Source: Ascidia mentula (Eukaryota > Chordata > Ascidiacea > Phlebobranchia > Ascidiidae). From it: a DNA stretch of 64,000 nucleotides. The notes under the pieces were generated by a model. The model did no database searches. It was not told the origin of the DNA and saw nothing but the letters and a program-made list of their open reading frames with translations. Shown here one piece after another: positions 7,883 to 57,608 of the stretch (the first letter of the stretch is position 1; each line of letters begins with the position of its first letter). The translations under genes and the position numbers were made by a program. The stretch covers positions 315,001 through 379,000 of the forward strand of contig OX387201.1 in the NCBI GenBank assembly GCA_947561715.1. The letters run 5' to 3'.

Positions 7883-9245
7883 TCTTGAAGGCTTCACAAG
7901 CGCATTCTAATAAATTCCCCTTTATCTGCAAACTTTTTCAAACAGAAATGAATATTTCTTAAAACGGTCAATTGAAGTAAAGAAATTTTCTTTTCTAAAT
8001 ATTCTGTCAACGATTTACTATTTTAGTTATGTTGGAAAATATCAGCGATAATTTTCCAGCGTTAAAAACGTGTCCTCAGCCGACTAAAGAATTCTCTGAA
8101 AGATCAAAACTCAACTGAATCCTCGGCATTTGACGCCTGCTCTCGGTTCAAACAATATAAATTCACCAACCATTGTTGGCAATTCAAAAAATGTTTCGCA
8201 ACACAACGTCAGTCACACTGATTGGTGCTTTCAAAGTTCTGGATCCGATTCCGGTCTGTGTGAATGTAAAAATGTAAGTTATTGCAATAGTAAAAGTACA
8301 AGATATGCAAGTACCAGTTGTCACAGATGCAATAAAGAGGAAAGAATATTGACATAACAAAGGCCGTATCACTTTGTACGAACCCCACAACTTACTTTAA
8401 TTTTGTTCGGCAGCAAATATGGGACCATAAAAAAGTTGTTGATCCCATACGGGCGCTGTTAAGTCGAAACAGACGTTGGCAGTCACCTGTATCATACGCA
8501 ACAGCCATAAAACGATCGTAAAACCAAAGTTGGTCAACCGGGGTCTGTTACAGGATTGCTTTAACGATTCCGCGTGGCACGGATGCAATTGGCTTCCATC
8601 GGTTGAACCCGAATTTGTTGAAACGAAATAATCGAGGAATCAAATCAAGATTTCTTAAACTTTTTTGTTCCGCGATACAATTTTGAAAGGAAAACGCGTC
8701 ATCCCGATAATAAAAAACTAAAAACGTTAAACACGGAATTGTTCCTGCAAAATAACATTTGTATCGCGACACCAAAATCGTACTTGGTTTAGAAGTCCTG
8801 ACTTGCATTCCTGTGTTCTCGTTTGTAATTTTCCTCATTCCGGTCTAATAAGTTGGTATGGTCGCTCGTTTGGCGACTTGTCTTGTTAAAATAAAAATAA
8901 TTTTCATTGGCATAGGAACGTGATATTGAAAACTATATTCTAAAATACTACTTGTAACGTTTAGTTGAGATCAGGAAGATTCCAATTAAGTTCAATTAAG
9001 TGAAAATTAATATGTTTTAACTGCTGCGGATTAACGAAACATGTGCCGTGAAAGTCACGCTTGGGTTGTTTTTTGACTGACATATTTGATGTTGTAGTAA
9101 TTTTCCGACATTAAATAAAAAAAAATCCGATGTTATTTTTGGTCAAATTTTGCCGTTTATGAATGAAACAATGTTTTTTTATCACTTCTTATTTCACAAA
9201 CCAATAACTTTTTTTTTAAATGTAGAAAAATTTAAACGAGCAACA
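7883..9245. other. Intergenic region between divergent lectin gene and PRORSD1-like gene
   Basis: About 1.36 kb separates two divergently transcribed start codons, so it should hold both promoters. Short open frames here show no recognisable domain or codon bias. Just before the PRORSD1-like start a T-rich run ends in atgtag (about 9210-9225), which could serve as a 5' splice-leader or intron acceptor. Nothing else is supported. Confidence 0.5.
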
Positions 9246-9743
9246 ATGGAAAAGCATTCCCAAGAATTAAATGAAATACTCAACAATCTGGGAGTTGAAT
9301 TTCAGTGCGTGGAACACCCGGAGGTATTCACTGTTGAAGCGATGATGCCATATCTCAAAGACCTGAAAGGGCTCGTTTGTAAAAACCTTTTTGTCAAAGA
9401 CAAGAAAAAGAAGTTATGGCTACTGGTGGTGTGCCATGATAAGGATATTAAACTAGCAGAGGTTGGTAAGTTAGTTTCTGCAAAAGGTGGCCTGAGATTT
9501 GCCGATGAATCAGTGTTGTTTGAAAAGTTAAAAGTTCATCAAGGTTGTGTCACACCCATGGCGTTATACAATGATACCAGTTGTGATGTGGAGATTGTTC
9601 TTGATGCTGACTTGATTAAAGAACCAGATGAAATGGTTTATTGTCATCCTATGTCGAATACTGCATCCATTGGCTTGAAAGGTTCAGATTTACTGAAGTT
9701 CCTTAAACATTGCAAGCACGAACCAAAAATTATTGATTTGTGA
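9246..9743 (+). CDS. PRORSD1: Prolyl-tRNA synthetase-associated domain protein (YbaK/ProX editing domain)
   Basis: Single-exon gene of 165 residues. The start at 9246 (MEKHSQELNE) is preferred over an in-frame ATG at 9150 because vertebrate PRORSD1 begins at the same point and the extra residues are low-complexity and F-rich. Conserved blocks are VEHPEVFTVEAMMP, KNLFVKDKKKKLWLL, LRFADE, LKVHQGCVTPMAL and YCHPMSNTASIGL, in the order and spacing of mouse Prorsd1. Family knowledge: free-standing editing domains of this kind hydrolyse mischarged Ala-tRNA(Pro) in the cytosol. Length equals the usual family length, and the conserved editing-domain lysine (K in KNLF) is present. SNRNP35 follows 450 bp downstream on the same strand. 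Confidence 0.95.
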   Translation: MEKHSQELNEILNNLGVEFQCVEHPEVFTVEAMMPYLKDLKGLVCKNLFVKDKKKKLWLLVVCHDKDIKLAEVGKLVSAKGGLRFADESVLFEKLKVHQGCVTPMALYNDTSCDVEIVLDADLIKEPDEMVYCHPMSNTASIGLKGSDLLKFLKHCKHEPKIIDL

Positions 9744-10195
9744 TCCTTTTTTGAGTGATTTGTGAACATGATCAATATGAACACTAGTACTATGTTGAAA
9801 ACTATGTTTTAAGCTGCATATATTTTACTTACTGACATTGCTTTGTAACATGCACCAACATGTTTATGTATATTAATGTAATTTGTTTAAAAATCTTGTG
9901 TGTATTTTGCACATCTAAAATGTTTTGTCGTATGTTTATCTGCTGGGAAATTTCTTGGGAGAATTATTTATAAATATATATGATCTCCAACAGTAAATAC
10001 TCTACTTATTCTTGGGATTTTTGCGCTAAACTTTTTGTAAACAGTATGATGATGCCTTAAGGGTGAAATATATTCTTGCTATATGACATTTTAGGCTACT
10101 TTTCAAATACGAGGTTAGCCATCACACTTTATACACAAGAAGAACTAACATTTATTAATCAAGGTGTTTTTAAAGTTGCAGAAAATAGGAATTAC

Positions 10196-10783
10196 ATGGG
10201 TGACAAAAGACTGAGTTTACAGCATTGGCAACCTTATGCCATTGAATATGATCCCTTGAAATGTGGAAGTATTGATGGCACAGACATACAAGCTCATGAC
10301 AGAGCAATATCCAGGGCCATACAATCTGAATACAAACCCAACCAGACTGTAAAGGGCAACCCAGACTGCACAGTATTTGTGGCAAGACTAAACCACACAA
10401 CCACAGAACAAACTTTGAGACAAATTTTTGGGTCCTTTGGCTCGGTTGTCAAGGCAACAGTAGTTCGTGATTATGTGACAGGGTTTCACCGTGGTTACGG
10501 TTTTGTTGAGTTTTCCAATTCAGATGAAGCTCGCGAGGCATTCAGGGATGCACACCAACTTGTTATAGACGGAAACACTATTTTGGTGGATTATGAAAAT
10601 AGCCGAAGCATGAAAGGTTGGAAACCAAGACGTTTGGGTGGCGGTTTTGGTGGCAAAAAAGAATCCGGGCAGTTGCGATTTGGGTGCAGGGACAGACCTT
10701 TCAAACGCCCAATATCATTTGATAAACCACGATATGGTGATTCTTATGGTTACAGCAAAAGGCACCGATCTCACAACAGATAA
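10196..10783 (+). CDS. SNRNP35: U11/U12 small nuclear ribonucleoprotein 35 kDa protein
   Basis: The single-exon frame starts at MGDKRLSLQHW, which aligns with the short N-terminus of human SNRNP35; the frame is open further upstream, but that part has no homology and is probably 5' UTR. Recognisable blocks: EYDPLKCGSIDGTD, an RRM with RNP2 (TVFVARLN) and RNP1 (RGYGFVEF), then the family-specific GWKPRRLGGGFGGKKESGQL and GCRDRPFKRPI. The C-terminal arginine-rich tail is much shorter than in human. The protein belongs to the minor (U12-type) spliceosome and contacts the U11 5' splice-site complex in the nucleus, so U12-type introns should exist in this genome. The next gene starts 198 nt downstream on the same strand. 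Confidence 0.95.
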   Translation: MGDKRLSLQHWQPYAIEYDPLKCGSIDGTDIQAHDRAISRAIQSEYKPNQTVKGNPDCTVFVARLNHTTTEQTLRQIFGSFGSVVKATVVRDYVTGFHRGYGFVEFSNSDEAREAFRDAHQLVIDGNTILVDYENSRSMKGWKPRRLGGGFGGKKESGQLRFGCRDRPFKRPISFDKPRYGDSYGYSKRHRSHNR

Positions 10784-12506: not shown

Positions 12507-13185
12507 CGAGAAGTCGGCAGAATTTTTTATACTTGTTTAATTTATATTTTTTGTGCTTCTGAGAAGTATGTGCTGTGTGTAACATGCAACTGTATGTGCA
12601 TAATGCATTGCCGAAAATTAAACAAAACTTTTTCAGTCTGCGATTTATGAGCTACAAGGGGGAAGGATAGCAGTTATTATACTTGTTGAAAAGGTCTTTT
12701 GCAACATGTGTTTTTACAATTTTGTGTCTAAAAATTAATAAGCATCCGTTTGTAAAATAAGGGCTACCTTACTTTTATCGGAAAATGATAAATAATCCTA
12801 AGTCGTCTGTCTGTTTCAAGTTTTTACGACATATATATTTCGCCTGTCTGTGCAGGCATCATCAGTAACTCTGTCAGCCATAAAGACTACACAGGCGATT
12901 TATAGAAATCAAACTCTCATTTACTTTTATCGGGTTTGATTTCTTGAAAGAAAAATTCTTTGTCCCGCTTGAAAAAATATCTTAAAAACCGTTCGGCGAA
13001 AGAAAGTCAGTGAAGCGTGAAAAACGTGGGAGACGAGTTCGCGCGGTTTTCGACAATGAACAACCAAAAAGGTTTGTTTTTCCGTTTCGAAGGCGCTTTG
13101 CCGCTTTCATTGGATAATAACTGCTTGTGGCGTTTTGTGCTTAAGTCTGGCTTGCTGTAGGTGCTTCAGCTCATTAGTTTGTAAC
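12507..13185 (+). promoter_or_regulatory. POLA1 upstream region with palindromic repeat and E2F-like sites
   Basis: The proximal part contains GGCGAAA (12995-13001) and TTCGCGCGG (13038-13046), both resembling E2F sites, 140-190 bp before the POLA1 start; E2F control is typical of replication genes. Further upstream, about 12838-12905 is a small palindrome (cgcctgt ... acaggcg) followed by a second one (agaaatcaaac ... gtttgatttct, to about 12945). These look like remains of a folded repeat. Factor binding is inferred from motif resemblance alone. Confidence 0.4.
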
Positions 13186-16100: not shown

Positions 16101-19100
16101 TGATTTCAGGTTTTTCATTTTTATTGGCTCGATGCATTCGAGGAACAATATAAAAAACCTGGGGTCGTTTATTTGTTTGGAAAAGTTTATGTGGAGTCGG
16201 CCAAAAGCCATGTCAGTTGTTGCGTTACCATAAAAAATATTGACCGAAAGATCTACCTTCTGCCTCGAGAACAGGTAACTTTTCGATAAGTGTAAAAAAA
16301 GTAGCTTTTCCTTAAGTATCTCAATATTATTGTGTGTGCAACTGGGGCGTATGCAAACATTTTGTTTTGTCAAAGAATCGGAAAACTAAAGAGGAAATCT
16401 CGCCACAAGATGTCTACCAAGAGTTTGATTCTGAAGTTGCCGACAAATATAAAATTATGAAGTTTAAAACCAAAGTAAGGAATTATCAGATAACATACAA
16501 CAACCTGCAGTCGTTTGTGCACAGCAGACAAGGCCACCGCTCCGATCCATCAGGTCTCATCAGTGCAGTGAAGAATTAACTTTGTGGTGATTATCCACCG
16601 TCATCCGTTGATGAGACCTTGGTTGAAACAGTGGCCATCTGTATGCAGCTCACATAATTCATATTGCTGTCTCCATGCTTATTTATATGAACTTGCTGCA
16701 TAATAGAACTTTTGACGCAAAGTTTTTGTAAAAATTACTTTCAGTCGTATAATTTGAATAAAGGATAGAAATTTACAAACAATAAACACTTTATTTCATG
16801 GTGACATTAAGTGAATAATCCTTTACAAATATACTGGACACATTTTTAAGGTCGTGGAGAAAAAATATGCCTTTGGAGCTGAGGGAGTTCCCCACCAAGC
16901 TCAGTACTTGGAAATATGTTACCCAGCTGAGTACGGTCAACTTCCTACTGACCTTGCTGGCGACACGTTCCAATGTGTCTTTGGTGCCAATCAATCGTCA
17001 CTGGAGGCGCTGTTGTTGGAGAGGAAGATTAAAGGGCCAAGCTGGATTGACATAAGTAGACCAGGTTGGTATGGCGACATTGCTTTACATTATTTCTCAT
17101 CACTTTGGAAAACTGGGGCTGTGTACAATAAGATCGAAAACGGATCTAAAAAAAATTGTAACTACTATGCTGCTGAAATATCCATTTACAAAAAAAACAA
17201 GTTTGAGCTAGGGCTGATATTGTGTTTTACATGGTTTGATTGTCAACTTTCTTTACAAAACCAATAAAATTATTGTGCAACCACCTTTCAGGCCTGAGCA
17301 CATCAGCAGTAAGTTGGTGCAAAGTTGAGGTTACGTCACTTGCGCCGTCCGATCTGGTCGTAGTGGAAAACATCCCTCCTCCACCACTGGTTGTGTTGTC
17401 TTTGAGTTTGAAGACCGTCCCTAACTTGAAAACACATCAGAATGAGGTTAAATCACAACATTTTTTAACTTTAAATTAAAAAAGAGTAAATCGTAAATGC
17501 AGTGAATATTGCACACACAAACATTCACAGATCAACAAAAATTAGTATGAGAACATTAAAAACATTCAAAACTAACCTTGGTTCTAGACTTACTTCTAGT
17601 TTAAAATTTTTGTTTTGTAAGCAAAACTTCATCCTGTTTAATTTGTGCAGATTATTGGGATCGCCGGTTTGGTTCATAAACAGTTTGCTGTCGACAAACC
17701 AGCTCCGAAGCCAGCATTTCAAAGCAGTTTCTTCGGTGAGGACCTCCTGTATATTGTGTGTTATAATACCACACAGTCGCATGTTACCTCCAACTGTTCA
17801 GTGCAATTCATGTGCAAAAGTTCATCACCAAACTATTGCACATAGGAATGGTACTTAACAGGGGTTGGCACTTTCCACCACTTTAAACTATGCTAACTTT
17901 ATGCTGTGTTGTACTTGGTCGGTAACAGTGCAAAGGCAATCATTTATTTGAGCTATTGCACTGTTACTTTACCCAATACATGTACAGATTATCTTCATAT
18001 CAACCTGTGATTGTTAGCCCAAATTTCAGAATTTGTTATGTATGTATTCGTAAAGCACTTGAAAAGTGTAGGATCATTATCGCAGTAATTTTGATGAAAT
18101 ATATATTTGTATCGGATGAAAAATGCCAGTATTGGACGTCCTTAAAAAAAATTTAAGTATTGGAAATCCTAGTAATCCTGTCTATTGTAGGATAAGTTGT
18201 GAGTTACGACGTCGGTTGGTGGAGAGGAACTTATAAGTGCAAGAGCTTTTTACCCCATGTGCTATTGCACTTAATGTTCCTTCTCCATCGTGCTTGCTCT
18301 CTGCATAGATATGTTGCCTGTGGTGGTTCCGGGCACATTGAGTGTGGAAGAACTGTTGTTGTTATTGCACACTAATGTACCCAGAAACTCTGCACCTATC
18401 ATCACAGATCTTGTGGTTTCAGTAAAACTAAACATCAATTTTACTATAAAAATACAAACTTTCTCTATAACTTTGTTTTGTAAGTTTGTAAATATAACAT
18501 ATGTTTCTGCAGTGTTGTTTGTACTGGTTTCGCATGTGACTGATTAAGAAACTTGAATATTGTTCAGTAAAATACTTTTTTTCGCACAACAGCGATCACC
18601 AAACCAAGCGATTGTATCTTTCCGTATGATTTACGAGAAGCGATTAAAAGGAAAGGATTTGATGTTGAGATTATCGGGACTGAACGATCCATGCTCAGTT
18701 ATTTTCTGGCAAAGTTTCTTAAGGTTTGCTGCAATAATTTTGTTCAAGACTTTATTGAAAGAATTTTCTTTTTAATTTCTGTTTTTAAAAGTAACTATAC
18801 TAGGGATCACTTTACTCTGTTGCCATTTCTAGAAAAACATACATCAGTCTGTTTAAAAACAACAATTTAAAGAATATTTTGAAGTGCATTGTGTCGGGGA
18901 AGTCAGCGATTTGCAAGGGGACCAGTTTGTTTAGGGCTAAATTTTGATGTTAACATTTGCAACATCAAAATCAAGAAACAGTTTTATTTTGGTTATAAAC
19001 AAACACCTTAGTACAGATAACACCTCGCTCTGCTGTTGCACGAAATGTATTGTTGTCTACTGGTTTCTATGCCGACATGTTCAAATCTCCTCTGTGACCT

Positions 19101-31479: not shown

Positions 31480-33146
<1,667 letters not shown>

Positions 33147-35050: not shown

Positions 35051-38000
35051 TTATTCAACAATCTCAACCCCTCCATCACCATCCTGCTCAGCATGGGGGT
35101 TGTATCTGACACTTAAATCAGACGAACGACTCCTTGATGTACGTAATGATGATATTTTGGAAACGAGCCATTCTTTCATCTTCGACAATCGCTCTTCCAA
35201 TACTTTGGAGTAGAGCAAGGGGTTGAGGGCGCTGTTGATTGGAAGCAACAGACAAGCACTTAACACATAAGCGTCTCCTGGCATCTTCACTCCTCCTACA
35301 CTCAAAAATTCCATCACACAAATTGGAATCCAGCAACAAAAGTCGGTCAAAATCAACCTGGTGATTCTCTTCTGCATCTTGGAGCTGACATCAGTGCTTC
35401 TGGATCCTTTCATGCGGTTGCTTCGCTTGTAAATAAGAAAATAAGCAACCACCATGTAGATGAACATGAGGAAGTTGATTGTGATGAGGAATGTTGAATA
35501 TTCCCAAGCAAACTCATTGGTAGTTGCAAACAAACGTGGCATACAGACGCTCGTTTCACCATGATATCCAAACTCTCCCTTGATAGAGTTACGTGGAAAG
35601 GCGTTTTCAATTGTACGTTTAACATCGTACCAAGACTCTGGCTCTGTGGAAATTCTTTGTGCAAGTAACGACATATTTTCTCTTGAAACAAAATCGGTTT
35701 CATAAAAGTTATTTGGAAACCAAACATCAGTGGCAAAGTACTCAGAAGTTGCGCTGAACAAAGGAACGGTTGCCAACAAAATAGCCAATATCCAACAACA
35801 CAACTCAACAATCACAGTTTTAGTAACACTGACATTTCGCATGAGGAAAGGTTTAAAGGCCGATATCAGGCGAAATGTGGTCATAGCTGTCATAGTGAAG
35901 GCTGATGCTTCTGATGATACAACTGCAAGTGCTCCAAGTCCTGAACACAAGCTACTTGATCTCCATTCTTTATCAAACAAACAATAAGATCCAGAATATC
36001 TAGTCGCTTGTATTATGATTGCCAGCAGATAAACTCCCATGAGAAGGTCAGACACGCAGAGGTTGAGAATAAAAACGCTTGTATTAATAAACAAATTCTG
36101 ATCCTTATTAACTTTAATCAAGTCACGTGTGGTTGTAACAAATACAAACGAATTCCCTCCCAGTGCTAAGATGCCTGTCACCCAGAAGATACCTCGATAA
36201 ACTGTGTTTGCGATCATTTCGTTGACGTCTGCAAATGCGTTTCCAGCCAAATTAACACATTCGTCACTTCCGTCTGAGCAGTCATTAATTCCGTTCTGTA
36301 CAACTTTCATTTCAACAGACAAAGGTTGTTTATTTGTGCAATAAAACCTGGTATTTTCACAACGACACCTGCTTTCATCAGATACGTCATCGCAGTCCAT
36401 TATTCCGTCACAAACATGATTCCTGTCGATGGAAATCTTTCCTTTACTTCTGCAGTAGTAGCGGGTATTCTTACAAAGTTCTAGAAATTCGTCTGATTTG
36501 TCATTGCAATCAATTATTCCATCACAGACTCTTTGATTTTCCATGTTAATTTTTCCTTTGTTGAAACATTTAAACCTGTTCGGACACAGAATTTCTCCGT
36601 CAAGCCCGAAGAAATCGTTGACAGATCCATCACACCACATGGGAAATCGACTCCTTGCATAAGGTATTCCACCTATTTTTTGAGCGGTTCTAAACTGCAT
36701 TTTCATAGCTAAAACGCAAAGAGATTCGTTGCCCAAATTATTTACTGTGAAGATGTTGTCATCTGCTACACACTCACTTTGCACTGATGCTGTCCCAGTT
36801 GAACAGTATTTTGTGTTATTTTGGTTGACACATTGTACACTTGTGTTACATAACACCTTATCTTGGTCCACACATGTAGAACTGTCCTTACAATGCATTT
36901 GGTTCTGGGGACAATCTCCTCGTATATCGCGACATAATGTTTGATTTTCACACAAACATTCATCTGACATATCAAAGCAATCCACTACACCGTCGCAAAC
37001 TTGCTTGCTTGAAACTATCAGATTTCTGTCCAAACACTGGAAACATCTAAACTGTCCATTGAAGAAACAAATATCAGAACTGTCAGAACATTGAGCCACT
37101 GAGTCGTACACGTTGGTTTGAGGTAAAACACAAACACCTTTTCTTGATGATCCAGAACATTTAAATCCAAACCCATGTTGAACTTCGTCACTTTTGTCCT
37201 TGCAGCCATCAATAGCTTGTCCATCACAAAAATATTCTCTTGCAATAAGTTGTTGATTTTCACAGAAAAATAAATTTTCGCAGGATTTGCTAAATGTTGA
37301 AACTGTGCACATCACTACAACTTCGCAATTATTAACATCGGTAGCGCACGTTTCACCAACAACTTCATTGCACGTGTATGGATCAGTCGTATGTATGAGA
37401 TTTCTGGCTTCCTTTTCACTTGGACAAGTTACAGTAACCACATGACAAGATTGACATGTGATGTTAGAAAATGAACAAACTTCGTCAGTTCCATCAACAC
37501 AATCTACGAAGTTATCATTTATCCAGCTGAAAGGTATACATCTACCGTCTGGTGAGCACTGTGTGTTATTTGGATTACATGGACATCTTGCGTAAGTACC
37601 AGAACAGTTGCAAGTATAATGTGTCTCATCACTTCCATCAATACAGTCAGGTTTTCCGTCACACAACAAAGATCGATCAATGCAATTTAAATCCTTTAGA
37701 ATACACTGTTTCAATCCAACACAAGCACATTCAAACTTATCCGCTGGACATGTGCAGTTAAACTCATCACTCAAATCTCCACAGTGATTGAACCCATCGC
37801 ATTGCTTAGATTTACTGATGCAACCACCACTCCGCCAGGAACTGCAGTTTTTAAATTTGTAACAAGGACACTCAAACCTATCCGCTGGACATGTGCAGTT
37901 AACTTCATCACTCGAATCTCCACAGTTACTGCTTCCATCGCATTGCATTGATTTACTAATACAATAAGAGCCCAGTGACGTGCAATTATTAGTTTTGTGG

Positions 38001-38671
38001 CATGAACACTCAAACCTATCCGCTGGACATGTGCAGTTAACCTCATCACTCCAATCTCCACAGTTGTTATTTCCATCGCATTGCTGAGTTGTCCTAAAGC
38101 AACCACCCCACCCTAACGTACAGTTATTAGTTTTGTAACATGGACACTCAAACTTGTCCGCTGGACATATGCAGTTAAGCTCATCACTATCGTCAGGACA
38201 ACGCGAAATTCCATCGCATCGTAAAGATGCATGTACACATGTTCCAGGACATGTTGTGTTAAAGCAATTGCACTGGAAACTACCATCAGAACAAACCTCA
38301 CTTAACTCATCACTCCAATCTCCACAGTGTTTAATTGCGTCATTTACATACCACAGCCCAATACATCCTGGTTGATTCGATCCACATTTCCCGAACTTAT
38401 GGCAAGCACATTCGAACATGAACGAGGGACAAGTGCAGTTGGGATCAAGATATGGAGCTTCACAAACCGGTAGATTTTCATATCCTGTTACGAGACACAG
38501 GCTTAATTTTGGACAAATGATTTAAGGTGTGATCAAAAATTATATTCAGGAGGTTACACTGTTAGCTTCACACTTACTTGTGATGGGAAGAGGAGCCAGA
38601 CTTGTGTCCTCACCCGGACATTCACCTTCCGCCCATCCGATCAACACAAATATCAACAATAACTTTAACAT
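35051..38671 (-). CDS. LDLa-repeat rhodopsin-type GPCR, copy 1
   Basis: Two exons: 38578-38671 (signal peptide MLKLLLIFVLIGWAEG, phase 1 GTAAGT donor) and 35051-38484, together 1175 residues. About twelve LDLa modules with the CDG...C.D.SDE calcium-cage pattern fill residues 60-780; one near the middle is degenerate. A 7TM domain covers about residues 796-1125. Family marks: LCVSDLLMG in TM2, TDFCCWIPICVM in TM6 and NSALNPLLYS in TM7, closest to relaxin-receptor/LGR and mollusc GRL101-type receptors. No leucine-rich repeats are visible between the LDLa array and TM1, and the usual DRY is replaced by TFRLISAF. ECL2 is long (about 80 residues). The ligand is unknown; the protein is a plasma-membrane receptor. 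An AATAAA overlaps the stop and another follows about 40 nt downstream. Confidence 0.9.
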
Positions 38672-44612: not shown

Positions 44613-47600
44613 TTATCCAACAATCTCAATCACTTTACCACCATCCTGTTTAGCACGGGGGTTGTATCTAACACCGAAATCAGACGAACGACTCCTTGAT
44701 GTACGCAATGATGATATTTTGGAAACGAGCCATTCCGTCATCTTCGACAATCGCTTTTCAAATGCTTTGGAGTAGAGCAAGGGGTTGAGGGCGCTGTTGA
44801 CTGGAAGCAACAGACAAGCACTCAACACATAAGCGTCTCCTGACATCTTCACCCCTCCAACACTCAAAAATCCCATCACACAAATTGGAATCCAGCAACA
44901 AAAGTCGGTCAAAATCAACCTGGTGATTCTCTTCTGTATCTTGGAGCTGACATCAGTGCTTCTGGATCCTTTCATGCGGTTGCTTCGCTTGTAAATAAGA
45001 AAATAAGCAACCACCATGTAGACGAACATGAGGAAGTTGATTGTGATGAGGAATGTTGAATATTCCCAAGCAAACTCATTGGTAGTTGCAAACAAACGTG
45101 GCATACAGACGCTTGTTTCACCATAATATCCAAAATCTTCCTTGATAGAGTTACGTGGGAAGGCGTTTTCAATTGTATGTTTAACATCGTACCAAGACTC
45201 TGGCTCTGATGTTGAAATTCTTTGTGCAAGTAACGACATGTTTTCTCTTGACACGAAATCTGTTTCATAGAAGTTATTTGGGAACCAAACATCTGTGGCA
45301 AAGTACTCAGAAGTTGCGTTGAGCAAAGGAACGGTTGCCAACAAAATAGCCAACATCCAACAAGACAACTCAGCAATCACAGTTTTAGTAACACTGACAT
45401 TTCGCATGAGGAAAGGTTTAAAGGCCGATATCAGGCGATATGTGGTCATAGCTGTCATAGTGAAGGCTGATGCTTCTGATGATACAACTGCAAGTGCTCC
45501 AAGTGCTGAACACAAGCTACTTGATCTCCATTCTTTATCAAACAAACAATAAGATCCCGAATATCTAGTCGCTTGTATTATGATTGCCAGTAGATAAACT
45601 CCCATGAGAAGGTCAGACACGCAGAGGTTGAGAATAAAAACGCTTGTATTAATAAACAAATTCTGATCTTTATTAACTTTAATCAAGTCACGTGTGGTTG
45701 TAACAAATACAAACGAATTCCCTCCCAGTGCTAAGATGCCTGTCACCCAGAAGATACCTCGATAAACTGGGTTTGCGATCATTTCGTTGACGTCTGCAAA
45801 TGCGTTTCCAGCTAAATTAACACATTCGTCACTTCCGTCTGAGCAGTCATTAATTCCGTTCTGTACAACTTTCATTTCAACAGACAAAGGTTGTTCATTG
45901 GTGCAATAAAACCTGGTATTTTCACAACGACACCTGCTTTCATCAGATACGTCATCGCAGTCGATTATTCCGTCACAAACATGATTCCTATCTATGGAAA
46001 TCTTTCCTTTATTTCTGCAGTAGTATCGGGTGTTGTTACATAGTTCTAGAAATTCGTCTGATTCGTCATTGCAATCAATTATTCCATCACAGACTCTTTG
46101 ATTATCCATGTTAATTTTTCCTTTGTTGAAACATTTAAACCTGTCCGGACACAGAATTTCTCCGTCAAGCCCGAAAAAATCGTTGACAGATCCATCACAC
46201 CACATGGGAAATCGACTCCTTGCATAAGGTATTCCACCTATTTTTTGAGCGGTTCTAAACTGCATTTTCATAGCCAAAACGCAAAGAGATTCGTTGCCCA
46301 AATTATTTACTGTGAAGATGTTGTCATCTGCTACACACTCACTTTGCACTGATGCTGTCCCAGTTGAACAGTATTTGGTGTTAGTTTGGTTGACACATTG
46401 TACACTTGTGTTACACAACACCTTATCTTGGTCCACACATGTAGAACTGTCCTTGCAATGCATTTGGTTCTGGGGACAATCTCCTCGTATATCGCGACAC
46501 AATGTTTGATTTTCACACAAACATTCATCTGAAATATCAAAGCAATCCACTACACCGTCACAAACTTGCTTGCTTGAAACTATCAGCTTTCTGTCCAAAC
46601 ACTGGAAACATCTAAACTGTCCATTGAGGAAACAAATATCAGAACTGTCAGAACATTGAGCCACTGAATCGTAGACGTTTGTTTGAGGTAAAACACAAAC
46701 ACCTTTTCTTGATGATCCAGAACATTTAAACCCAAACCCATGTTGAACTTCGTCACTTTTGTCATTGCAGCCATCAATAGCTTGCCCGTCACAAAAATAT
46801 TCTCTCAGAATAAGTTGATGATTTTCACAGAAAAATAAGTTTTCGCAGGATTTGCTGCATGTTGAAACTGTGCACATCACTACAACTTCACAATTATTAG
46901 CATCGGTAGCGCACGTTTTACCAACAACTTCTTTGCACGTATATGGATCAGTTGTACGTATGAGATTTCTGGCTTCCTTTTCACTTGGACAAGTTACAGC
47001 AACCACGTGACAAGATTTACATGTGATGTCAGAAAATGAACAAACTTCGTCAATTCCATCAACGCAATCTATGAAGTTATCATTTATCCATGTAAAAGGT
47101 ATACATCTACCGTCTGGTGAGCATTGTGTGTTATTTGAATTACATGGACATCTGGCGTAAGTTCCAGAACAGTTGCAGGTATAATGTGTCTCATCACTTC
47201 CATCAATACAGTCAGGTTTTCCGTCACACAACAAAGATCGATCAATGCAATTTAAATCCTTTAGAATGCACTGTTTCAATCCAACACAAGCACATTCAAA
47301 CTTATCCGCTGGACATGTGCAGTTAAACTCATCACTCAAATCTCCACAGTGATTGAACCCATCGCATTGCTTAAATTTACTGATGCATCCACCACTCCGC
47401 CAGGAACTGCAGTTTTTAGATTTGTAACAAGGACACTCAAACCTATCCGCTGGACATGTGCAGTTAACTTCATCACTCCAATCTCCACAGTTACTGCTTC
47501 CATCGCATTGCATTGATTTACTAATACAATAAGAGCCCAGTGACGTGCAATTATTAGTTTTGTGGCATGAACACTCAAACCTATCCGCTGGACATGTGCA

Positions 47601-48235
47601 GTTAACCTCATCACTCCAATCTCCACAGTTGTTATTTCCATCGCATTGCTGAGTTGTCCTAAAGCAACCACCCCACCCTAACGTACAGTTATTAGTTTTG
47701 TAACATGGACACTCAAACTTGTCCGCTGGACATGTGCAGTTAAGCTCATCACTATCGTCAGGACAACGTGAAATTCCATCGCATCGTAAAGATGCATGTA
47801 CACATGTTCCAGGACATGTTGTGTTAAAGCAATTGCACTGGAAACTACCATCAGAACAAACCTCACTTAACTCATCACTCCAATCTCCACAGTGTTTAAT
47901 TGCGTCATTTACATACCACAGCCCAATACATCCTGGTTGATTCGATCCACATTTCCCGATCTTGTGGCAAGCACATTCGAACATGGACGTGGGACAAGTG
48001 CAGTTGGGATCAAGATATGGAGCTTCACAAACCGGTAGATTTTCTTCTCCTGTTACGAGACACAAGCTTAATTGCAGACAAATGATTTAAAATATAATTT
48101 AAATTATATTCAGGAGGTTACACTGTTAATTTCACACTTACTTGTGATGGGAAGAGGAGCCAGACTTGTGTCCTCACCCGGACATTCACCTTCCGCCCAT
48201 CCGATCAACACAAATATCAGCAATAACTTTAACAT
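44613..48235 (-). CDS. LDLa-repeat rhodopsin-type GPCR, copy 2
   Basis: Same two-exon structure as copy 1: 48142-48235 (94 nt, signal peptide) and 44613-48049, giving 1176 residues. The LDLa array, 7TM domain, CWIP and NPLLY marks are all kept. It differs from copy 1 at scattered sites, for example PVNSALNPLLYSKAFEKR in place of PINSALNPLLYSKVLEER and a one-residue insertion (STSEPES). The stop is followed by GATAAA instead of AATAAA, but a second AATAAA remains downstream. Full reading frame, so likely functional. Confidence 0.9.
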
Positions 48236-53985: not shown

Positions 53986-56900
53986 TTATCCAACAATCTC
54001 AATCACTTTACCACCATCCTGTTTAGCACGGGGGTTGTATCTAACACCGAAATCAGACGAACGACTCCTTGATGTACGCAATGATGATATTTTGGAAACG
54101 AGCCATTCCGTCATCTTCGACAATCGCTTTTCAAATGCTTTGGAGTAGAGCAAGGGGTTGAGGGCGCTGTTGACTGGAAGCAACAGACAAGCACTCAACA
54201 CATAAGCGTCTCCTGACATCTTCACCCCTCCAACACTCAAAAATCCCATCACACAAATTGGAATCCAGCAACAAAAGTCGGTCAAAATCAACCTGGTGAT
54301 TCTCTTCTGCATCTTGGAGCTGACATCAGTGCTTCTGGATCCTTTCATGCGGTTGCTTCGCTTGTAAATAAGAAAATAAGCAACCACCATGTAGACGAAC
54401 ATGAGGAAGTTGATTGTGATGAGGAATGTTGAATATTCCCAAGCAAACTCATTGGTAGTTGCAAACAAACGTGGCATACAGACGCTTGTTTCACCATAAT
54501 ATCCAAAATCTTCCTTGATAGAGTTACGTGGGAAGGCGTTTTCAATTGTATGTTTAACATCGTACCAAGACTCTGGCTCTGATGTTGAAATTCTTTGTGC
54601 AAGTAACGACATGTTTTCTCTTGACACGAAATCTGTTTCATAGAAGTTATTTGGGAACCAAACATCTGTGGCAAAGTACTCAGAAGTTGCGTTGAGCAAA
54701 GGAACGGTTGCCAACAAAATAGCCAACATCCAACAAGACAACTCAGCAATCACAGTTTTAATAACACTGACATTTCGCATGAGGAAAGGTTTAAAGGCCG
54801 ATATCAGGCGATATGTGGTCATAGCTGTCATAGTGAAGGCTGATGCTTCTGATGATACAACTGCAAGTGCTCCAAGTGCTGAACACAAGCTACTTGATCT
54901 CCATTCTTTATCAAACAAACAATAAGATCCCGAATATCTAGTCGCTTGTATTATGATTGCCAGTAGATAAACTCCCATGAGAAGGTCAGACACGCAGAGG
55001 TTGAGAATAAAAACGCTTGTATTAATAAACAAATTCTGATCTTTATTAACTTTAATTAAGTCTCGTGTGGTTGTAACAAATACAAACGAATTCCCTCCCA
55101 GTGCTAAGATGCCTGTCACCCAGAAGATACCTCGATAAACTGGGTTTGCGATCATTTCGTTGACGTCTGCAAATGCGTTTCCAGCTAAATTAACACATTC
55201 GTCACTTCCGTCTGAGCAGTCATTAATTCCGTTCTGTACAACTTTCATTTCAACAGACAAAGGTTGTTCATTGGTGCAATAAAACCTGGTATTTTCACAA
55301 CGACACCTGCTTTCATCAGATACGTCATCGCAGTCGATTATTCCGTCACAAACATGATTCCTATCTATGGAAATCTTTCCTTTATTTCTGCAGTAGTATC
55401 GGGTGTTGTTACATAGTTCTAGAAATTCGTCTGATTCGTCATTGCAATCAATTATTCCATCACAGACTCTTTGATTATATATGTTAATTTTTCCTTTGTT
55501 GAAACATTTAAACCTGTCCGGACACAGAATTTCTCCGTCAAGCCCGAAAAAATCGTTGACAGATCCATCACACCACATGGGAAATCGACTCCTTGCATAA
55601 GGTATTCCACCTATTTTTTGAGCGGTTCTAAACTGCATTTTCATAGCCAAAACGCAAAGAGATTCGTTGCCCAAATTATTTACTGTGAAGATCTTGTCAT
55701 CTGCTACACACTCACTTTGCACTGATGCTGTCCCAGTTGAACAGTATTTGGTGTTAGTTTGGTTGACACATTGTACACTTGTGTTACACAACACCTTATC
55801 TTGGTCCACACATGTAGAACTGTCCTTGCAATGCATTTGGTTCTGGGGACAATCTCCTCGTATATCGCGACACAATGTTTGATTTTCACACAAACATTCA
55901 TCTGAAATATCAAAGCAATCCACTACACCGTCACAAACTTGCTTGCTTGAAACTATCAGCTTTCTGTCCAAACACTGGAAACATCTAAACTGTCCATTGA
56001 GGAAACAAATATCAGAACTGTCAGAACATTGAGCCACTGAATCGTAGACGTTTGTTTGAGGTAAAACACAAACACCTTTTCTTGATGATCCAGAACATTT
56101 AAACCCAAACCCATGTTGAACTTCGTCACTTTTGTCATTGCAGCCATCAATAGCTTGCCCGTCACAAAAATATTCTCTCAGAATAAGTTGATGATTTTCA
56201 CAGAAAAATAAGTTTTCGCAGGATTTGCTGCATGTTGAAACTGTGCACAGCACTACAACTTCACAATTATTAACATCGGTAGCGCACGTTTTACCAACAA
56301 CTTCGTTGCACGTATATGGATCAGTTGTACGTATGAGATTTCTGGCTTCCTTTTCACTTGGACAAGTTACAGCAACCACGTGACAAGATTTACATGTGAT
56401 GTCAGAAAATGAACAAACTTCGTCAATTCCATCAACGCAATCTATGAAGTTATCATTTATCCATGTAAAAGGTATACATCTACCGTCTGGTGAGCATTGT
56501 GTGTTATTTGAATTACATGGACATCTGGCGTAAGTTCCAGAACAGTTGCAGGTATAATGTGTCTCATCACTTCCATCAATACAGTCAGGTTTTCCGTCAC
56601 ACAACAAAGATCGATCAATGCAATTTAAATCCTTTAGAATGCACTGTTTCAATCCAACACAAGCACATTCAAACTTATCCGCTGGACATGTGCAGTTAAA
56701 CTCATCACTCAAATCTCCACAGTGATTGAACCCATCGCATTGCTTAAATTTACTGATGCATCCACCACTCCGCCAGGAACTGCAGTTTTTAGATTTGTAA
56801 CAAGGACACTCAAACCTATCCGCTGGACATGTGCAGTTAACTTCATCACTCCAATCTCCACAGTTACTGCTTCCATCGCATTGCATTGATTTACTAATAC

Positions 56901-57608
56901 AATAAGAGCCCAGTGACGTGCAATTATTAGTTTTGTGGCATGAACACTCAAACCTATCCGCTGGACATGTGCAGTTAACCTCATCACTCCAATCTCCACA
57001 GTTGTTATTTCCATCGCATTGCTGAGTTGTCCTAAAGCAACCACCCCACCCTAACGTACAGTTATTAGTTTTGTAACATGGACACTCAAACTTGTCCGCT
57101 GGACATGTGCAGTTAAGCTCATCACTATCGTCAGGACAACGTGAAATTCCATCGCATCGTAAAGATGCATGTACACATGTTCCAGGACATGTTGTGTTAA
57201 AGCAATTGCACTGGAAACTACCATCAGAACAAACCTCACTTAACTCATCACTCCAATCTCCACAGTGTTTAATTGCGTCATTTACATACCACAGCCCAAT
57301 ACATCCTGGTTGATTCGATCCACATTTCCCGATCTTGTGGCAAGCACATTCGAACATGGACGTGGGACAAGTGCAGTTGGGATCAAGATATGGAGCTTCA
57401 CAAACCGGTAGATTTTCTTCTCCTGTTACGAGACACAAGCTTAATTGCAGACAAATGATTTAAAATATAATTTAAATTATATTCAGGAGGTTACACTGTT
57501 AATTTCACACTTACTTGTGATGGGAAGAGGAGCCAGACTTGTGTCCTCACCCGGACATTCACCTTCCGCCCATCCGATCAACACAAATATCAGCAATAAC
57601 TTTAACAT
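53986..57608 (-). CDS. LDLa-repeat rhodopsin-type GPCR, copy 3
   Basis: Exons 57515-57608 and 53986-57422, 1176 residues, at a constant 9373-bp offset from copy 2. Only a handful of residues differ from copy 2, for example VIKTVIAEL for VTKTVIAEL, SSKMQK for SSKIQK and NIYNQRV for NMDNQRV. All domains and splice sites are intact. Confidence 0.9.

Follow-up and report, generated by a model that had tools for sequence, protein, structure and literature searches.

In vertebrates, the miR-106b-25 cluster is located in the 13th intron of MCM7, and the available portion of PMC4834410 tells the origin of the miR-17-92 and miR-106b-25 clusters through vertebrate duplications. In Drosophila, miR-92a and miR-92b are placed inside jigr1 in the accessible text of PMC4441384. 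For Ciona, the part of PMC8001136 at hand describes a miR-92a/b/c cluster in C. savignyi, which it calls intergenic, and two clusters in C. robusta, one comprising miR-92a/c/d and the other miR-92b/e; the same part reports a notochord phenotype for an ascidian miR-92c knockout, and MCM7, POLA1, and the term intron are not mentioned in its main text. Among the open-licence papers listed, none was found to place miR-92 genes of a tunicate in either POLA1 or MCM7, cataloguing elsewhere being possible. A study of host genes in Ciona robusta (PMC13198604) contains neither MCM7 nor POLA1 nor miR-92, and the combination of MCM7, miR-92, and Ciona led to one sea-cucumber study, in which MCM7 appears in a reference title only and Ciona in a probe list only. 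As described below for Ascidia mentula, POLA1 is a second replication-gene host of miR-92/25-seed hairpins beside MCM7.

The window, i.e. the whole stretch of 64,000 nucleotides that was analyzed (contig OX387201.1, positions 315,001 to 379,000), contains a GT-AG intron of 857 nt at 17736..18592 (+), of phase 1 as judged by eye. It is flanked by coding exons at 17651..17735 (+; start placed at AG by eye) and 18593..18723 (+; end placed at GT by eye). The first-pass annotation had claimed an 857-nt intron of POLA1 at this position. Its borders proved correct, and the translation of the flanking exons, joined to that of neighboring exons, identified the host gene as POLA1, encoding the catalytic subunit of DNA polymerase alpha (phmmer, E 4.6e-59). 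A partial DNA polymerase alpha zinc finger was recognized at ~27.6 kb of the window (PF08996, E 2.2e-6). A search of the genome with the intron returned the intron itself as the sole match, ruling out a repeat element as the source of the hairpins described below. A scan for E2F sites yielded nine loose matches in the window and three in locus L012, which is too weak for use; one of the loose matches, at 13097, lies ~390 bp 5' of the first coding exon recognized by eye (13483).

Several other genes surround POLA1. Upstream, two uninterrupted frames encode an aminoacyl-tRNA editing domain protein (9090-9740 (+), PF04073) and an RRM protein that is U11/U12 35K-like by eye (10067-10780 (+), PF00076). 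Directly downstream, an ARX-like homeobox gene occupies 31725-33143 (+), with the homeodomain in two pieces (PF00046). POLA1 and ARX adjoin in human as well, and the arrangement here looks like conserved synteny. Three tandem units of ~9.4-9.6 kb follow at 35051-38521, 44613-48086, and 53986-57459 (-), all of which contain an unbroken frame (1156 or 1157 amino acids). The one copy tested, 44613-48086, combines LDL-receptor class A repeats with a rhodopsin-type receptor (Pfam).

Within the POLA1 intron, the octamer TATTGCAC is present at 17834, 17954, 18263, and 18363 (+), and each of these four octamers forms the start of the 3' arm of a stable predicted hairpin. The first hairpin, P1, spans 17795..17860 (+) and was examined by folding, sliding-window, seed-place, and tail-shuffle tests. 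Its predicted 3p product, UAUUGCACAUAGGAAUGGUACU, occupies 17834..17855 (+), with the 3' end assumed at 22 nt, and its predicted 5p product was placed at 17800..17821 (+) by applying the 2-nt overhang rule to the predicted fold. The other three hairpins were subjected to folding and control tests, and their 3p products were read from the predicted folds: P2 at 17918..17975 (+) with UAUUGCACUGUUACUUUACCCA (17954..17975, +), P3 at 18219..18287 (+) with UAUUGCACUUAAUGUUCCUUCU (18263..18284, +), and P4 at 18328..18390 (+) with UAUUGCACACUAAUGUACCCAG (18363..18384, +). Folding of each segment, as proposed along with the initial claim, gave four microRNA-like hairpins. The 86-nt segment around P1 reached -30.7 kcal/mol (z -4.8), the 81-nt segment around P2 -31.8 kcal/mol (z -5.6), and the 96-nt segment around P3 -38.5 kcal/mol (z -6.3), and for each of them 0 of 200 shuffles was as good. 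P4 was clearly the weakest of the four (76 nt, -22.6 kcal/mol, z -2.0, 7 of 200 shuffles as good). In all four predicted 3p products, nt 2-8 read AUUGCAC, the miR-92/25 seed; both the clustering of four hairpins in one intron and the position of the seed on the 3p arm, which had been claimed at the outset, were thus borne out. In a single-hairpin test, P1-P4 folded at -28 to -36 kcal/mol, with 18-19 of the 22 mature bases paired to the arm upstream. Because the predicted loops measure 9-16 nt and 18-19 mature bases are paired, P1-P4 fit a pre-miRNA; the community criteria for a microRNA gene ask for a loop of at least 8 nt and for 16 or more bases paired between the two arms, and all four hairpins exceed both values.

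Hairpins with the same seed were found at two further loci of the genome. Three of them, M1-M3, lie at C69:11001223-11001544 (L011:1501-1822) on the same contig as the POLA1 cluster, 10.7 Mb off. They reside on the host strand in the penultimate intron of MCM7. By phmmer the surrounding exons were assigned to MCM7 (E 2.9e-50), the best hit on any other protein being MCM3 (3.4e-7). The intron measures 491 nt, is of phase 0 with the junction LATAL|ARLRL, and is followed by one more intron before the stop codon (by eye). The product tails at this locus are UAUUGCACUUGUCCCGGCCU, then UAUUGCACUUCCCUAGACUGGU and CAUUGCACUGUUAUUGAUCUGG in the following hairpins, with spacings of 140 and 118 nt. M1 represents the canonical miR-92 product, its tail being identical to that of Halocynthia miR-92 (12/12 bases, P 6e-8), and it folds weakly (-16.7 kcal/mol), failing the combined hairpin test described below. 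Members of the miR-17 type (miR-106b, miR-93) were not recognized by eye in the MCM7 intron. The third locus, C70:18081815-18082108 (L010:1278-1571), contains two canonical miR-92 hairpins, C1 and C2, with seeds 222 nt apart and with the tails UAGUCCCGGUCU and UUGUCCCGAUCU past the octamer; the nearest recognized gene is a downstream gene for a CXXC zinc-binding protein (PF05907). A genome search with the ciona-mir-92 model RF01117 at E<=1 returned two places, C70:18082038 at 42.3 bits (E 1.6e-5) and C69:11001223 at 27.4 bits (E 0.18), both under the family cut-off of 56, in a search in which 3 of 14 control genomes matched too. The C69 match was counted despite its weak model score because its product tail is identical to Halocynthia miR-92. 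With RF00464, the third locus scored 30.0 bits, under the cut-off. The first-pass annotation had pointed to the vertebrate cluster in MCM7 as a parallel for POLA1, and this parallel is strengthened by the finding that MCM7 of the same genome carries three seed hairpins, one of them canonical.

The word TATTGCAC by itself is only mildly enriched in the window, where it was counted nine times on both strands versus 3.3 expected, a number reached by 1 of 100 shuffles. Genome-wide (195.8 Mb), CTATTGCAC occurs 598 times in forward and 564 times in reverse orientation, and the pattern read backwards 468 and 364 times. A fifth TATTGCAC, located in the preceding intron at 17507, does not form a hairpin (z -0.25). 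Stability alone is not distinctive either, as 79, 48, 35, and 122 of 12,783 sliding 85-nt windows match or exceed the fold stability of P1, P2, P3, and P4, respectively. One hairpin test was applied at all TATTGCAC places, the fold with the most paired bases being the one reported. Among 15 other TATTGCAC places (five in the window and 10 in L001-L008), one had no single-hairpin fold and the others reached -17.7 kcal/mol at best; seven of these also had 16-18 paired bases, their energies lying between -9 and -17.4 kcal/mol. When 100 distinct [TCA]ATTGCAC places were scored, nine passed a combined test that required -22 kcal/mol or better and a minimum of 16 paired bases; these thresholds had been set after the 15-place comparison and were applied with places near locus ends dropped. 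The passes comprised 4/4 places in POLA1, 2/3 in MCM7, 2/2 at the third locus, and 1/91 elsewhere. This control is made stricter by the fact that part of the 100-place set had been selected for complementary words. The only place beyond the three clusters to pass is a near-palindromic GTGCAATA...TATTGCAC hairpin in L043 (C72:2966393-2966424). On the evidence of the 15-place and 100-place sets, octamers lying at P1-P4 by chance were rejected.

Co-variation of the arms, through which pairing is kept in each hairpin despite differing sequences, had also been claimed. Every 5' arm was folded with every 3' arm of the nine hairpins of the three loci, giving 72 chimeras. These chimeras were used in place of a MAFFT alignment because the alignment misplaced the 5' arms (consensus of seven pairs, two of them compensatory, covariation -0.15 kcal/mol). 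The native arm pairs of P1-P4 reached -26.6, -29.8, -34.6, and -23.9 kcal/mol, and the 12 chimeras among them ranged from -10.2 to -27.6. The claim holds in that native pairs win for all but P4, whose 5' arm reaches -27.6 with the 3' arm of P3 and -23.9 in the native pair. Across loci, P2 is overtaken as well, its 5' arm reaching -32.5 with the 3' arm of M3 and -29.8 in the native pair, and the native arms of M1 are no better than its two chimeras with M3 and C2. When the tail past the octamer was shuffled 300 times, the native 3' arm was matched by 1% of the shuffles for P1, by none for P2 and P3, and by 1.7% for P4; the corresponding figures were 0 for M2, M3, C1, and C2 and 19% for M1. Three of the 72 chimeras stood at 3% of shuffles or less, which is about the chance rate. 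Two of them were far rarer, P2 with M3 (0/300 shuffles) and P4 with P3 (0.3%), and this cross-pairing is a hint of kinship, not a proof.

The CNNC motif is a mark of Drosha substrates. As counted from the assumed 22-nt 3p end, it was present 16-18 nt downstream in 7/9 hairpins of the three loci versus a background of 10.8% (P 5e-6), and in 4/44 other seed places. For the four POLA1 hairpins alone the result was marginal, with 2/4 at 16-18 nt (P 0.06); the counts of 3/4 at 15-18 nt and 4/4 at 15-20 nt refer to wider ranges picked afterwards. In the predicted folds, base 2 of the product is unpaired in P1-P4, M1, and M3 and paired in M2, C1, and C2.

Assignment of the cluster to the miR-92/25 family, as proposed in the first-pass annotation, stood in part: the exact seed and its 3p position are there, and a match to the Rfam mir-92 and ciona-mir-92 models is not. 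P1-P4 fell into no Rfam family at the gathering score, and neither RF00464 (mir-92) nor RF01117 (ciona-mir-92) gave a match in the POLA1 intron at E up to 10; Rfam family membership was rejected on these grounds. A homologue of mir-1497 in the genome scored 59.1 bits (E 4.7e-11), under the cut-off of 80, in a search in which 2/14 control genomes matched at E<=1, and it marks the genome as that of a tunicate; the accessible part of PMC5831862 dates the mir-1497 family to the origin of Tunicata. The scores for mir-1497 and ciona-mir-92, both under their cut-offs, lend no support to Ciona as the source. A relative was found outside Rfam for one of the hairpins. The Halocynthia roretzi miR-367 sequence is given as UAUUGCACAUUGUAAUGGUA in Table 1 of PMC5399378, and the available text of that paper reports a clear embryo RT-PCR band with confirmed sequence. 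The P1 product agrees with it in 18/20 bases and, ungapped, in 10/12 tail bases; the P value of 3.8e-5 holds for a single pair and equal base frequencies, and 12 POLA1-Halocynthia pairs were among the 66 compared. Several pairs of canonical miR-92 products are equally close among those 66. In a gapped tail comparison of 153 pairs it was weaker (nominal P 0.0045), and there P1-P2 and P2-P4 reached nominal P values of 0.006 and 0.008. Without gaps, the tails of P1-P4 had fewer than 7/12 bases in common with any canonical miR-92 or with each other. Thus, among the members compared here, P1 is the only one of the four with a clear outside relative, and the tails of P2-P4 are unlike those compared. 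The cluster is best designated as miR-92/25-seed microRNAs, a name that for P2-P4 refers to the seed.

We consider P1-P4 to be genuine microRNA precursors with a miR-92/25 seed that form an intronic cluster, and we give this reading a probability of roughly 85%. The opposite view, that the four structures are fold-backs without small-RNA output, such as splicing structures or decayed inverted repeats that share the octamer by chance, appears very improbable. It can draw on the abundance of CTATTGCAC in the genome, on the fact that inverted 8-mers arise, as shown by the 1/91 other places that passes the hairpin test, and on other folds of equal stability in the window. It has to account for a coincidence of 4/4 in a single intron, with the octamer opening the 3' arm each time, in an intron that matches itself alone in the genome and in arms whose pairing extends well beyond the octamer. 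The hairpins could also be real and be driven by an intronic promoter of their own, uncoupled from POLA1 transcription. The three-member miR-92 cluster of C. savignyi, reported as intergenic in the portion of PMC8001136 at hand, provides a precedent. Against this rather improbable alternative, all four hairpins lie on the strand of the host within one short intron of 857 nt, and a second cluster with the same seed lies in an MCM7 intron, on the host strand too.

A more serious question is whether the four, if genuine, belong to miR-92 by descent. Their seed might have arisen by convergence, or a hairpin unrelated to miR-92 might have been duplicated locally, as would fit the failure of RF00464 and RF01117 in this intron and the low ungapped likeness of the P1-P4 tails to canonical miR-92 and to one another. 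Such an origin is conceivable, and we regard it as unlikely on balance. P1 resembles Halocynthia miR-367, and two of the 153 gapped tail comparisons, P1-P2 and P2-P4, hint at relatedness within the cluster by their nominal P values. The arms of P4-P3 and P2-M3 cross-pair better than nearly all or all shuffled tails, and MCM7 of the same genome carries the same seed. Diverged tails are, moreover, no peculiarity of the ascidian hairpins: the vertebrate members miR-32, miR-363, and miR-367 share the miR-92/25 seed and have diverged tails too.

If P1-P4 are genuine microRNA precursors, they would be co-transcribed with POLA1 and cut out of its pre-mRNA as a polycistronic set by Drosha/DGCR8, with Dicer acting next. 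Each hairpin would yield a 3p guide beginning with UAUUGCAC. At the start of each predicted guide, the U is paired and the A at nt 2 is not, and such a weak end would favor loading of the 3p strand. Because all four share the miR-92/25 seed, they would have common targets, and the seed AUUGCAC would lead to repression of a common set of GUGCAAU-bearing mRNAs. The dose of the microRNAs would follow the transcription of a replication gene and, in this way, be linked to S phase. As judged from the sequence, processing, loading, targets, and coupling to the cell cycle are all predictions of this model.

The residence of miR-92/25 in MCM7 probably predates the split of tunicates and vertebrates because the vertebrate miR-106b-25 cluster also lies in an MCM7 intron. 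A canonical miR-92 in tunicate MCM7 would put the MCM7 host before the vertebrates and make the link between seed and replication ancestral. The tie of miR-92/25-type microRNAs to replication genes may thus be older than vertebrates. In a fuller scenario, which we regard as evenly poised between right and wrong, the MCM7 cluster was present in the tunicate-vertebrate ancestor and gained its miR-17-type members later, in vertebrates, the four-hairpin POLA1 cluster was added in the ascidian lineage, and both clusters emit the seed at S-phase entry. POLA1 would then be a further instance of the coupling between seed and replication, and the question is testable in ascidian embryos.

Among the described systems, Drosophila miR-92a/b are also located inside a host gene, but their host is jigr1. 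Halocynthia roretzi miR-367 is similar to P1, whereas P2-P4 are without counterpart among the three seed-sharing entries in the available Table 1 of PMC5399378. The Ciona miR-92 clusters are alike in having tandem hairpins, several per cluster, with UAUUGCAC at the start of the product. Their consensus retains the tail UUGUCCCGGCCU in the accessible part of PMC8001136, whereas the POLA1 products have other tails. The numbers of hairpins in the MCM7 cluster (three) and at the third locus (two) agree with the counts in the two clusters of C. robusta. The vertebrate miR-106b-25 cluster likewise includes a microRNA with a miR-25/92 seed and has a replication gene as its intronic host. The ascidian MCM7 cluster occupies the penultimate intron, and human MCM7 presumably has 15 exons, which would make intron 13 the penultimate one. 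The POLA1 cluster differs from miR-106b-25 in its host, and all four of its members share one seed.
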